Source: Cardiobacteriaceae bacterium (GTDB lineage: Bacteria; Pseudomonadota; Gammaproteobacteria; Cardiobacteriales; Cardiobacteriaceae). From it: DNA of 64,000 bases. Within the stretch, counting starts at the first letter, position 1, and the number at the start of each line of letters is the position of its first letter. Location of the stretch: positions 1 to 64,000 of the forward strand of contig JAUMXB010000004.1 in the NCBI GenBank assembly GCA_030529365.1, in the 5' to 3' direction. Below are positions 54,813-60,189 of this stretch, piece by piece. A model generated the notes under the pieces. That model made no database searches. It had not been told where the DNA came from and worked only from the letters and a program-made list of their open reading frames with translations. The position numbers were made by a program, and so were the translations under genes.

Positions 54813-55550
54813 TTAGAAACGGTAACGGATCACATCCTGGTATTGCTCGATCAATGCCTGGTTGCGTGCCTGTCCGCCATCCATGTTGGCGGAATAGTAA
54901 ATGGGCGGATATTCCATGCCTGAGGCAATCAGGCGTTTGCAAACTTCGACGACGATAGTGTTCATGATGGCGGCGCCGACCACGGTTGACGTCGGCCCCA
55001 CTTTTTGCGAGATGCCGGGCAGCTCGCATACTGCATCGCCGATAACGCCGTGGTTATCGATGACGATATCGGCGAGTTCAAACAGGCGCTTGCCGCTGGA
55101 ATGGCGGCTGGTCACGCTTTGCGAGTAGGCGAGATTGGTGATGGCGATGATTTGTGCGCCCCTGGCTTTTGCCGCCAGCACCAGATCGATGGCGACGGCG
55201 TTGCGACCGGATACGGAATGGGCGATCAATACGTCGCCCGCGCGGAAATCCACGGTGCCTGCCAGTATTGTGCCGTAGCCTTCGAGCTGTTCCATGCGGC
55301 TGGTGGCGCTGATTGGGGTGCGGTTGAGCATGATTTCTTCGCCGAAAATGGGGTTGATGACCATGAGACCACCGGCGCGGTAATACATTTCTTCGGCAAG
55401 AATGCCGGCATGGCTGGCGCCGAAGATGTAGATGGCGCGCTTGTCGAGTATGGCATCGGCAAGCGCTGCAATGGTGGCGTCGATGGCAGCCTGCTCTTCC
55501 CTGAAAGCCTGCTCCAGCATTTCCAGCACCGCTTTTTGGTAAGCGTACAT
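54813..55550 (-). CDS. SIS-domain sugar-phosphate binding protein
   Basis: This 245-aa protein has a SIS fold (AIYIFGASHAGILAEEMYYRAGG; GDVLIAHSVSGRNAVAIDLVLAAKARGAQIIAITN), as in sugar-phosphate isomerases and the UPF0309 group. It starts in the base after the PTS IIC stop codon, so it probably acts on the sugar phosphate brought in by the PTS. The exact reaction (isomerase or deaminase or etherase) is not visible. Confidence 0.88.
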   Translation of the reverse strand: MYAYQKAVLEMLEQAFREEQAAIDATIAALADAILDKRAIYIFGASHAGILAEEMYYRAGGLMVINPIFGEEIMLNRTPISATSRMEQLEGYGTILAGTVDFRAGDVLIAHSVSGRNAVAIDLVLAAKARGAQIIAITNLAYSQSVTSRHSSGKRLFELADIVIDNHGVIGDAVCELPGISQKVGPTSTVVGAAIMNTIVVEVCKRLIASGMEYPPIYYSANMDGGQARNQALIEQYQDVIRYRF

Positions 55551-56822
55551 TTATCCTCCGAAAATCAGGCTGATGTAATAGCTGACCAGGCCGCTGAGCG
55601 AGAGATCGTTGCCGCCGAAAATCAGAATCCAGTTCTGGATGGTGTGGCTGTAGATTGCGGCTGACAGGCCAACCAGTACCACCATCAGAATCGCGGCGCT
55701 GATGCTGCCGACAATGGCGCCACGCAGGCCGCCCTGTCCTTCGCCGATGACAGCTGCGCCGCCGCATTCGAAAAAGCTGGTAACCACCAGGGGCAACAGC
55801 AAGACGCCGAATACGTTGAAATAGTTGGTGATCAGAATCATGACGGTAGAAGCCACCATGGCCACGACAAAGCCGATGATCACAGCGTTGGGGCGATAAC
55901 CGAACAGTATCGGCACATCAAAGGCCGGCTTGGCGCCGGGGACAATTTTCTCGGCAATGCCCTTGAAGGCGGGAATGATCTGGCTGATCAGCATGCGCAC
56001 GCCATAGAGCATGACCAGCAAACCGGCAGCGAATTTCAGCCCGGCATCGATAGCGACGAAAAAGAGGCTCTTGCCTTCCGGCGCCAACGTCGGCAAAAAC
56101 ACGCCGGCCACCAGATAAATCAGAAACATCACCATCGCCCCGGCGACAGAGATTTCTTTGAAAAACGACAAGCTTTGCGGAATCTGCAAATCTTCGGTGG
56201 AGCGCGCCTTGTTGCCTGCGGCTTTGGCCACATAGCCGGAAAGCAGGGCGAGAATGCCGGTCGGGTGGCCGATCAAAAAGCTTTCGTCACCCGTGGCATC
56301 CCAGACGAAACGGCGCATGATCCACGGCATCAGCGACCAGTAGAGCGCGGAGAGCACGGCGCTGACCGCAATCAGCATGGCGCCGTCGAGTTTTGCCTCC
56401 ACACCGCCCGCCACGATGACGAAGGGAAACCACCACAGCATGTGTCCGGTGAGGAAAATCGTTTTGATCGGGGTGAAGCGGGCAATCAGCACGTGCAAAA
56501 TCAAGCCGATGAACATGCTCATGCCGACGATGCCGCCATATTCGGCAGTGAAGGCCACATCCGACAGGCCTTCGCCGGTGCTTACGCCCATTTGCGCCTG
56601 TACGGCCTGGTTGATGGGAGCAATGATGCCGACGAGAATGCCGACGCCTGCCTGTAAGATGACCATGCCGAACGCCGTCATCAGCGCACCCTTGACCACA
56701 TCGGGCAAGGGTTTGCGCTGTAGCAGCAGGCCGAGCATGGCAATCAGCCCCATCAGCACCGGGGCGTTGTTCAATATGTTGTCGAGCACGAAGCGCGCGA
56801 CGTCGTTCAGAAACGTACTCAT
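55551..56822 (-). CDS. PTS EIIC, ascorbate (UlaA/SgaT) type
   Basis: This 423-aa permease has about 11 membrane helices. FTAEYGGIVGMSMFIGLILHVLIARFTPIK, GHMLWWFPFVI and VTSFFECGGAAVIGEGQGG mark the ascorbate-galactitol IIC family. It overlaps the IIB gene by 4 bp. Its sugar is unknown; true ascorbate use would need UlaD/E/F-like enzymes, which are not here. Confidence 0.88.
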   Translation of the reverse strand: MSTFLNDVARFVLDNILNNAPVLMGLIAMLGLLLQRKPLPDVVKGALMTAFGMVILQAGVGILVGIIAPINQAVQAQMGVSTGEGLSDVAFTAEYGGIVGMSMFIGLILHVLIARFTPIKTIFLTGHMLWWFPFVIVAGGVEAKLDGAMLIAVSAVLSALYWSLMPWIMRRFVWDATGDESFLIGHPTGILALLSGYVAKAAGNKARSTEDLQIPQSLSFFKEISVAGAMVMFLIYLVAGVFLPTLAPEGKSLFFVAIDAGLKFAAGLLVMLYGVRMLISQIIPAFKGIAEKIVPGAKPAFDVPILFGYRPNAVIIGFVVAMVASTVMILITNYFNVFGVLLLPLVVTSFFECGGAAVIGEGQGGLRGAIVGSISAAILMVVLVGLSAAIYSHTIQNWILIFGGNDLSLSGLVSYYISLIFGG

Positions 56823-57097
56823 GATGCACCTCCGGGAAGCGTGGCCAGCTGCGCTTTCACCTCGTTTAGATCCATGTAGTTGCGCACTGGAAAGACAGGC
56901 ACCTGGACAGCAGCTTTCAGCTGGTCAGCCAGCTGGTAGCTGGTGAAAATCGCATCGGCATCCATGCTTTGCGCAGAAGTGAGATCGGTATTTTCCACGT
57001 CTGCCGCCATGCCCAGTTCGGCGGCGGCCTTTTCTATCGTAAATTTCAGCACCATGGAACTGCCGACGCCAAAACCGCATACCGCCAATATTTTCAT
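56819..57097 (-). CDS. PTS EIIB, ascorbate/galactitol type
   Basis: This 92-aa IIB protein carries the phosphorylated Cys in LAVCGFGVGSSM (Cys7). AAGGAG precedes the ATG at 57097. It pairs with the following IIC. No IIA domain gene is in the cassette, so phosphate must come from a IIA encoded elsewhere. Confidence 0.9.
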   Translation of the reverse strand: MKILAVCGFGVGSSMVLKFTIEKAAAELGMAADVENTDLTSAQSMDADAIFTSYQLADQLKAAVQVPVFPVRNYMDLNEVKAQLATLPGGAS

Positions 57098-57311
57098 CGT
57101 TCTCTCCTTGCCTTTCTGTGTGAATGACACGCGAAGAACGCGCTGCGAACCTGGGCGGAATGTGAAGGCCGCCACAACAGCTTTCGTCTCCAATCGTTGG
57201 CCATTGTATAGCCAGGATTACAGAAAATCAGTGTTTTGGCGAATGTGGCAGAAAAGACGCCCTGTAAGATGGTACATTTTCTCTCGCTGCGCGAGCAGTT
57301 TCTGTTATACA

Positions 57312-57785: not shown

Positions 57786-59957
57786 TTACATGCGTTTGAT
57801 TGAGGTGACGCCGTCGATGCCGCGCAGCATGCGGATGATTTGCGCGAGATGGTCGCGGTCGCGGACTTCCAGCCAGAGTTTGAGGAGGCGGCTGGTGTCG
57901 TCGTAAGGGATGCGGGCGATTTGCAGGTTGATGATGCTGCCGTCGGTTTCGCCGATGGCGGTGCTGATGTCGGCGATCATGCGCAGGCGTTCGGTAAATT
58001 GCAGTTCGAGGTTGGCGGCGAAGCGGCCGTGGCTGTCTTCGCCCCAGTCCACGCGCACCCATTGGCTGCGGTCGAGGGCGTCGAGTTCGCGGCAGTTGCG
58101 GCGGTGAACGGCGATGCCGGTTTGCGGCGACATGACGCCGACGATGTCTTCGCGCGGCAGCGGATGGCAGCATTCCGCGAGTTCGATGCCGGCATCGAGG
58201 GCGGAATGGATGTGCAGCACGTGTTTTTCATTGTGGATGGCCGAGCATTTGCCGCCAAGGAGGGAGTCGGCGACCAGCATGGGCTGGAGGTCGCCACGGC
58301 CGATTTCGCCATAGAGGGCTTTTTCGCTCAGCTGGTGCGCCTGGAGATAGCTTTCCAGGGTGCCGTGCGGCAGGGTGGCGATGCTGCTGCCGAAGTGGTG
58401 CAGGGCGCCGTCGAGCAGGCGCTTGCCGTTGGCAATGGCCTGGCGGGTGGCGAGATGGCGCAGGTAGTGGTTGATGGCGGCGCGGGCTTTGGCGGTGACG
58501 ACGAATTGCAGCCAGTTGGCGTTGGGGTGGGCGTTGTCGTCGGTGCGGATTTGCACGGTTTGCGCGTTTTCCAGCGGCTTGAAGAGGGGGTAGGGTTCGC
58601 CGTTGACTTTGGCGGCGACGCAGTGGTTGCCGACTTCGGTGTGGATGGCATAGGCGAAATCAAGCGGGGTGGCGCCGCGCGGAAGATCGATGACCTGGCC
58701 GCGCGGGGTATAGACGTGGATGTCGCCGGAGGAGAGTTCCTTTTTGATGGCGTCGTAGAATTCGAGCGGGTCGTGCGTGACGTTTTGCACTTCTTTCAGG
58801 CGCGAGAGCCAGTCGCGCATGTATTTTTCCGCTGAAATGGTGCGTTCTTCGAGTTTGACGCCGCGTTCCTTGATGTGCTGGTGCCAGACGGCGATGATGC
58901 CGGTTTCCGCGAGGGTGTGCATTTCGCGGGTGCGGATCTGGATGTTGAGGACGTCGCCGTTGGGGGTGATGACGCTGGTGTGCAGCGAGCGGTAGCCGTT
59001 GCTTTTCGGGGCGGCGATGTAGTCTTCAAATTTGCCGCTGACCGGGCGGTACAGGGCGTGCAGGCGGCCGAGCACGCGATAGCAGTCGTCTTCGTTTTCG
59101 GTGATGATGCGCAAGGGGACGGTGCGCGAGGCGGCCTTGAAGCTGGCCTTGCGTTTCATGCGCAGGTAGAGGCCCCAGAGATGGCGCTGGCGCTGGCTGA
59201 TGGAGGCTTTGATGCCGAGTGCGGTGAGGGCGGGTTTGAGATCGTGACGCACGCGGTCGAGAACTTCGGTGCGACGGAAGCTGTTGTTGTAATGCTTTTT
59301 GATAACGGCGTAACGCCAGGGGTGCAGGTGGGAAAAGGCGAGGTCTTCCAGCTGCATGCGCGAGTAGAAAAGGCCAAGGCGACCGGCGATGGAGGCATAG
59401 ACTTCCAGCGTTTCGCGCGCCTTGCGTTTGCGTTTGTCCGGCCGCAAGGCGCCGAGCGTTTGCATGTTGTGCAGGCGGTCGGCGAGCTTGATGATGATGA
59501 CGCGCGGGTCATCCGTCATCGCCATGAACATTTTCTTGAAGCTTTCCGCCTGCACTTCCTGCGGACCTTGATGTTGCAAGCGGTCAAGCTTGCTGACGCC
59601 ATCGACGATGGCAGTAACTTCATCGCCGAATTCCGCGCGCATTTCATCGGCAGTGACGGGCGTGTCTTCCAGTACGTCGTGCAGGAGCGCGGCCTGGAGG
59701 ACGGGCAGATCGAAGCGCTGCGAGGCGAGCAGACGGCAGACGGCGATGGGGTGGGTGAAGTAGGGACCGCCGGACTGGCGTTTTTGTCCGTCGTGGGCAA
59801 TGGCGCCAAAGATGGCGGCTTTTTCCACGGCTGCCATGTCTTGTGCGTCGAGATAGTTCGCCATTTCCGCTTCCAGCTCGGCATAGGCCGGTTGCAGGAA
59901 ATCTTCGCCCTCAACCTGGGCAAAGGGGCGGTGGATGGTTGTGGCAGCCCCGTCCAT
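57786..59957 (-). CDS. spoT: SpoT/Rel-family (p)ppGpp hydrolase, synthetase site probably lost
   Basis: This 723-aa long RSH protein has, in order, HD hydrolase, synthetase, TGS, helical, zinc-finger-like and ACT domains. The hydrolase is intact: LLHDVLEDT at 91-99 and KLADRLHN near 157. In the synthetase region the residues I align with catalytic positions differ: Arg278 where the DIYAFR Asp is expected, KFED (309-312) in place of RxKD or ExDD, and Asn338 in LNIQIRT where the catalytic Glu of EVQIRT belongs. So it is likely a (p)ppGpp hydrolase only. It starts 4 bp after rpoZ at the ATG at 59957 and precedes ridA. Confidence 0.95.
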   Translation of the reverse strand: MDGAATTIHRPFAQVEGEDFLQPAYAELEAEMANYLDAQDMAAVEKAAIFGAIAHDGQKRQSGGPYFTHPIAVCRLLASQRFDLPVLQAALLHDVLEDTPVTADEMRAEFGDEVTAIVDGVSKLDRLQHQGPQEVQAESFKKMFMAMTDDPRVIIIKLADRLHNMQTLGALRPDKRKRKARETLEVYASIAGRLGLFYSRMQLEDLAFSHLHPWRYAVIKKHYNNSFRRTEVLDRVRHDLKPALTALGIKASISQRQRHLWGLYLRMKRKASFKAASRTVPLRIITENEDDCYRVLGRLHALYRPVSGKFEDYIAAPKSNGYRSLHTSVITPNGDVLNIQIRTREMHTLAETGIIAVWHQHIKERGVKLEERTISAEKYMRDWLSRLKEVQNVTHDPLEFYDAIKKELSSGDIHVYTPRGQVIDLPRGATPLDFAYAIHTEVGNHCVAAKVNGEPYPLFKPLENAQTVQIRTDDNAHPNANWLQFVVTAKARAAINHYLRHLATRQAIANGKRLLDGALHHFGSSIATLPHGTLESYLQAHQLSEKALYGEIGRGDLQPMLVADSLLGGKCSAIHNEKHVLHIHSALDAGIELAECCHPLPREDIVGVMSPQTGIAVHRRNCRELDALDRSQWVRVDWGEDSHGRFAANLELQFTERLRMIADISTAIGETDGSIINLQIARIPYDDTSRLLKLWLEVRDRDHLAQIIRMLRGIDGVTSIKRM

Positions 59958-59961
59958 GGCG

Positions 59962-60189
59962 CTAGCCGTCGATGTCGCTGGCGGGCGCGGCGTGATCGAG
60001 CAGGCCTTTGATGCTGGTTTTGCCTTCTTCAATTTCGCGCAGGGCAAGAACGGTAGGCTTGTCGTGCTCGGGAATGACAAGCGGCTGGTGGCCAAAGGCG
60101 ATCTGGCGCGCGCGCTTCGATGCGGCCATGACCAGGCGGAATCGGTTGTTTTCTTCTTTCAGACAGTCTTCTACGGTAACTCGGGCCAT
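59962..60189 (-). CDS. rpoZ: RNA polymerase omega subunit
   Basis: This 75-aa subunit binds the beta' C-terminus and stabilises RNA polymerase. [10 protein letters not shown] and [16 protein letters not shown] are diagnostic. In E. coli omega with DksA mediates ppGpp control, which fits its place directly before spoT. The usual upstream gmk gene is absent here; the upstream neighbour is a ROK regulator. Confidence 0.95.

Follow-up and report, generated by a model that had tools for sequence, protein, structure and literature searches.

Hydrolase-only SpoT was described for Moraxellaceae in 2011, and proof for Acinetobacter baumannii followed in 2022; the protein, designated SpoT[Hs], is represented by PDB entry 7qpr (PMC9974481, PMC3153485, PMC12742793). 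With losses of the same kind as those reported here, A. baumannii SpoT was experimentally found to be hydrolase-only, and its pseudo-synthetase domain was shown by experiment to tune the hydrolase (PMC9974481). In Rel of Thermus thermophilus, the base is coordinated by R249, R277 and Y329; A. baumannii SpoT has lost these residues and does not bind GDP (PMC9974481). In papers from 2011 to 2025, a full division of labour, with RelA as the maker and SpoT as the breaker of (p)ppGpp, is described as a Moraxellaceae trait.

The stretch of DNA analysed here (the window; 64,000 nucleotides) carries a spoT gene whose product, according to a preceding sequence-only reading, should only degrade (p)ppGpp, as do Moraxellaceae SpoT proteins. 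The parallel held for function and failed for lineage: the genome is from Cardiobacteriaceae, not Moraxellaceae, and the case therefore concerns a lineage different from the known one. Dichelobacter nodosus is a member of Cardiobacteriaceae, and no relevant report on SpoT of Cardiobacteriaceae or Dichelobacter was found in the open-access papers searched. Hydrolase-only SpoT as such is already known; its occurrence in the Cardiobacteriaceae lineage appears to be unreported.

The spoT gene and its product

The contig of the window is part of a 2.30-Mb genome assembled in 32 contigs, with a completeness of 96.6%. The gene order around spoT is rpoZ-spoT-ridA, with the following positions:

59962..60189, minus strand: rpoZ, directly upstream of spoT, read from the sequence (MARVTVEDC...) and taken by us, on similarity, to encode RNA polymerase omega
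57786..59957, minus strand: spoT, open reading frame from ATG to TAA, 723 amino acids
57396..57770, minus strand: ridA-like gene of 124 amino acids, directly downstream of spoT, presumably of the RidA/YjgF family as judged from its translation

Beyond ridA, the minus strand holds genes for a PTS IIB-like protein, a PTS IIC-like membrane protein and a SIS-domain sugar-phosphate protein (54813-57193), which likely constitute a sugar uptake operon.

Pfam analysis of the spoT product revealed matches to HD_4, RelA_SpoT, TGS and ACT_4, and, together with the predicted model, the order HD, synthetase fold, TGS, zinc finger and ACT/RRM as in a long RSH. The domains are HD (residues about 28-215), pseudo-synthetase (about 216-362), core, TGS (413-472), helical, zinc-finger (with a CC motif at 596-597) and ACT/RRM. 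The protein groups with SpoT and not with RelA, a separate RelA being encoded elsewhere in the genome. A shorter core or alpha6-alpha7 loop, reported as a mark of hydrolase specialisation, was not seen, the core of the window protein having 55 residues versus 49 in E. coli SpoT. The SpoT of a same-genus assembly was 94% identical. A pseudogene or a sequencing error was ruled out by the open frame and by R278, one of the changed synthetase residues, being kept in the same-genus assembly (L034, cut before residue 338).

The predicted N-terminal half superposed on S. aureus Rel with pppGpp (7oiw) at 2.2 Å over 324 residues and on S. equisimilis Rel at 1.8 Å over 306 residues. Since the model superposes on these solved Rel domains, the synthetase fold is predicted to be retained. 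The superpositions give ranges and not residue pairs, so that the residue placement rests on sequence alignments. The full-length model superposed poorly on the compact, tau-shaped 7qpr (TM score of 0.42), at a pTM of 0.69 and with uncertain interdomain placement, and lends no support to regulation by precisely the 7qpr mechanism.

Catalytic residues and the RelA partner

Residues were placed by alignment with E. coli SpoT, PDB chains of Rel and RelA, and about 40 relatives, yielding the following features:

59664..59681, minus strand: HD catalytic motif H93-D94-V-L-E97-D98, intact
59466..59486, minus strand: hydrolase motif LADRLHN (residues 158-164), intact
59124..59126, minus strand: R278, where the synthetase motif DIYAFR has its Mg-binding Asp; R, Q, H or K across Cardiobacteriaceae
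59022..59033, minus strand: KFED (309-312), at the site of RxKD in SpoT/Rel or ExDD in RelA
58992..59009, minus strand: PKSNGY (317-322) with K318, N320 and the guanosine-stacking Y322, present family-wide and lost in A. baumannii SpoT (roles from PMC9974481)
58944..58946, minus strand: N338, replacing the Glu of EVQIRT that is catalytic in synthetases; Asn in 11/11 family members readable there

All ten hydrolase residues checked (H55, R60, H69, H93, D94, E97, D98, K157, D160 and N164) were present, bearing out the sequence-only reading, which had called the HD motifs intact. Its assignment by hand of the three deviating synthetase sites to R278, KFED and N338 was reproduced. An alignment shift behind the missing residues was ruled out: none of the three positions on either side of 278 is acidic and no gap interrupts the QIRT anchor following 338, so that a shift rescues neither site. 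The base-coordinating R249, R277 and Y329 of T. thermophilus Rel correspond to R256, R283 and Y322 of the window protein, which were present in all 11 members aligned; therefore, the catalytic sites are gone but not the whole pocket. The His of the TGS domain, which reads the CCA end of tRNA, is kept in the window protein (H439) and was lost in one family member (L008).

The only other long RSH of the genome is RelA, encoded on another contig, with intact synthetase motifs (DVRAVR, EFDD and EVQIRT) and a destroyed HD motif. A small alarmone synthetase or hydrolase was not found in this genome (96.6% complete, 32 contigs), as PF04607 and PF13328 each matched just spoT and relA; the genome search thus returned no second synthetase besides RelA. 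The split of control that had earlier been proposed for the case that RelA is present is what this gene complement points to: because the synthetase of RelA is intact, its HD domain dead and no further RSH gene was found, making and breaking of (p)ppGpp would be divided between two single-purpose enzymes. RelA proteins of eleven other genomes of the family also had an intact synthetase and a dead HD domain.

Given the losses of catalytic residues, the kept HD domain and the RelA partner, a SpoT confined to degradation is also our best reading of the sequence, as proposed before. With high confidence, we conclude that the window SpoT only degrades (p)ppGpp, and that RelA is the sole synthetase; the pseudo-synthetase would be retained as a structural or allosteric part. 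The HD domain would cleave the 3'-pyrophosphate off (p)ppGpp. The second domain, with a synthetase fold, would not perform pyrophosphate transfer because the Mg-binding Asp and the catalytic Glu are lost, and synthesis by SpoT would be absent. RelA would be unable to hydrolyse, and the retained pseudo-synthetase would, by analogy with A. baumannii SpoT, tune the hydrolase. (p)ppGpp would then rise only via RelA or via slower SpoT hydrolysis of the basal output of RelA.

Distribution of the losses in the order and the class

Eleven Cardiobacteriaceae SpoTs could be read at both sites; the Asp was replaced in each of them by R, Q, H or K and the Glu by N, and a twelfth, cut by a contig end, had R278; loss of both residues is fixed in Cardiobacteriaceae. 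Elsewhere in the order, both Asp and Glu were missing in families f3 (G013) and f4 (G014), with one genome each, and the SpoTs read from family f2 kept D and E. In a tree calculated without the synthetase columns, Cardiobacteriaceae (f1), f3 and f4 formed one clade with a support of 85, adjoining f2. The most economical interpretation is a single loss following the divergence from f2, with f4 being a very long branch. The f3 protein (L183) had neither the zinc-finger stretch (no CC motif) nor the synthetase catalytic residues, yet kept the HD motif and the ACT/RRM-like end.

The survey comprised SpoT proteins from 174 genomes, representing 140 families of the class, and none of the 174 was without the HD pair. 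Neither Asp nor Glu was seen to be lost in 151, of which one is cut by a contig end before the Glu, and 23 genomes from seven families (f1, f3, f4, f70, f36, f34 and f106) had lost Asp and/or Glu. Set against these numbers, the changes in the window SpoT go beyond a chance occurrence. Losses were found in f70 (3/3), in f36 (3/3, Asp only), in f34 (3/3, Glu only) and in one of two f106 genomes, the other being intact. Counting Moraxellaceae, for which the PDB sequence of A. baumannii SpoT stood in, the losses represent at least five lineages. A search of 370 genomes of the class with A. baumannii SpoT at E 1e-130 gave no match, so that close Moraxellaceae seem to be absent from the sample; an assignment of the f70 protein L051 to Moraxellaceae was unsupported (about 32% identity to 7qpr). 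Parsimony on the tree without synthetase columns yielded six changes. Loss of synthetase activity, as suggested by sequence, is less certain in f34, f36 and f106, because these families have lost a single catalytic site or show conservative replacements.

In the f34 proteins (L078, L186 and L187; genomes of 1.4-1.8 Mb), Glu was changed to His and the GR and AFR arginines were changed, and conservation of the synthetase domain was equal to that of the HD domain. L066 (G180) and L093 (G112), placed close to f34 in the tree, had Asp and Glu kept but an altered GRxKH motif and a synthetase domain that is relatively diverged; these SpoTs are possibly on the way to loss.

In each of the dead-SpoT genomes examined, the synthetase motifs of RelA are intact to the extent that they can be read, the RelA of G014 being cut by a contig end. 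In genomes with a single RSH, D and E were kept in 31/31 readable SpoTs; the association was not significant by family (Fisher p = 0.35) and gave p = 0.016 by genome, where genomes are not independent. The pattern agrees with loss occurring only where RelA exists. A RelA-type RSH of f106 (L199, G238) combined FDVRAVR, GEFDDY and EIQIRT with kept HDVVED and LADRLHN motifs and, going by these motifs, is a possible bifunctional RelA. A second RSH with a well-kept HD domain occurred in about ten other genomes.

The retained domain and comparison with known systems

Given the identity of the HD domain, synthetase identity within Cardiobacteriaceae equalled that of live SpoTs (mean z -0.45). On the same measure the dead lineages f70 (z -2.2) and f36 (z -3.1) came out relaxed, so the measure can detect decay. 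Against live SpoTs, the Cardiobacteriaceae synthetase domain was shifted (z about -2.0; live f2, -0.3 to -0.9). This shift and the normal rate within the family reveal a dead domain that was remodelled once and then held. R258, R266, R323, N338 and Q360 are new residues fixed in the family (100%), and R256, R283, K318, N320, Y322 and R342 are kept throughout.

That the kept substrate-binding Arg, Arg, Lys and Tyr can be read as residual activity, and that an assembly in 32 contigs could lack another RSH gene, speaks against a SpoT confined to degradation. Weak synthesis through a rearranged active site, with E311 or D312 of KFED, for instance, binding the metal, would be in line with KFED being acidic like ExDD of RelA and with R256, R283, K318, N320, Y322 and Q340 being kept in the window protein. 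We regard it as highly improbable, as every member that could be read at both sites has lost D as well as E, and position 278, where 99% of live SpoTs have D, is occupied by R, Q, H or K, none of them an Mg-binding carboxylate. Decay of the whole synthetase domain into a relic without function is unlikely; while the family has lost 11 of the 45 positions that live SpoTs conserve, the domain changes within the family at the rate of live synthetase domains and its new residues are fixed. From the above, we infer a non-catalytic, possibly nucleotide-sensing, regulatory domain. The kept base-binding pocket and the normal constraint suggest a nucleotide-binding sensor in Cardiobacteriaceae, where binding of GDP/GTP or ATP would report the energy state to the hydrolase, a tentative proposal that we hold to be rather doubtful.

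A loss event shared with Moraxellaceae, for example via spoT transfer, is quite improbable, even though a clade of Cardiobacteriales SpoT and A. baumannii SpoT was not rejected (p-AU 0.73); because of this value, the case for independence from Moraxellaceae is built on taxonomy and the live sister family instead of the gene tree. Within the order, D and E are retained in the sister family f2. A. baumannii SpoT, a very long branch with different replacements, has lost the K, N and Y of PKxNGY and the TGS His, which the window SpoT keeps, and a single clade of all dead SpoTs was rejected (p-AU 0.0056).

With a degrade-only SpoT beside a synthetase-only RelA as the preferred reading, the split is fixed in Cardiobacteriaceae and is probable in several further families, in each case together with a RelA and a retained hydrolase. 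This amounts to a repeated natural experiment on why synthesis by SpoT is dispensable and on what the dead domain does. Stresses which act via SpoT synthesis in E. coli would need control of the hydrolase or RelA in split-enzyme bacteria.

Among the known systems, A. baumannii SpoT shares with the window SpoT the architecture of a long RSH, the intact HD domain, the loss of synthetase catalytic residues and a synthetase-only RelA partner. It differs in belonging to another order and in having lost the equivalents of R256, R283, K318, N320, Y322, R342 and H439, which are kept in the window. A. baumannii has SahA, whereas no SAH was detected in the window genome, and its pseudo-synthetase is the most diverged one seen (z -5.1), whereas that of the window is constrained. 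The bifunctional SpoT[HS] of E. coli is alike in domain order, HD motifs, rpoZ-spoT neighbourhood and TGS His, but keeps D259, RVKD and E319 and can synthesise, while the window SpoT is without these residues. RelA[hS] with its pseudo-HD domain is likewise a paralogue with one dead but retained catalytic half, yet it is the mirror image, the HD domain being dead in RelA and the synthetase in the window SpoT.
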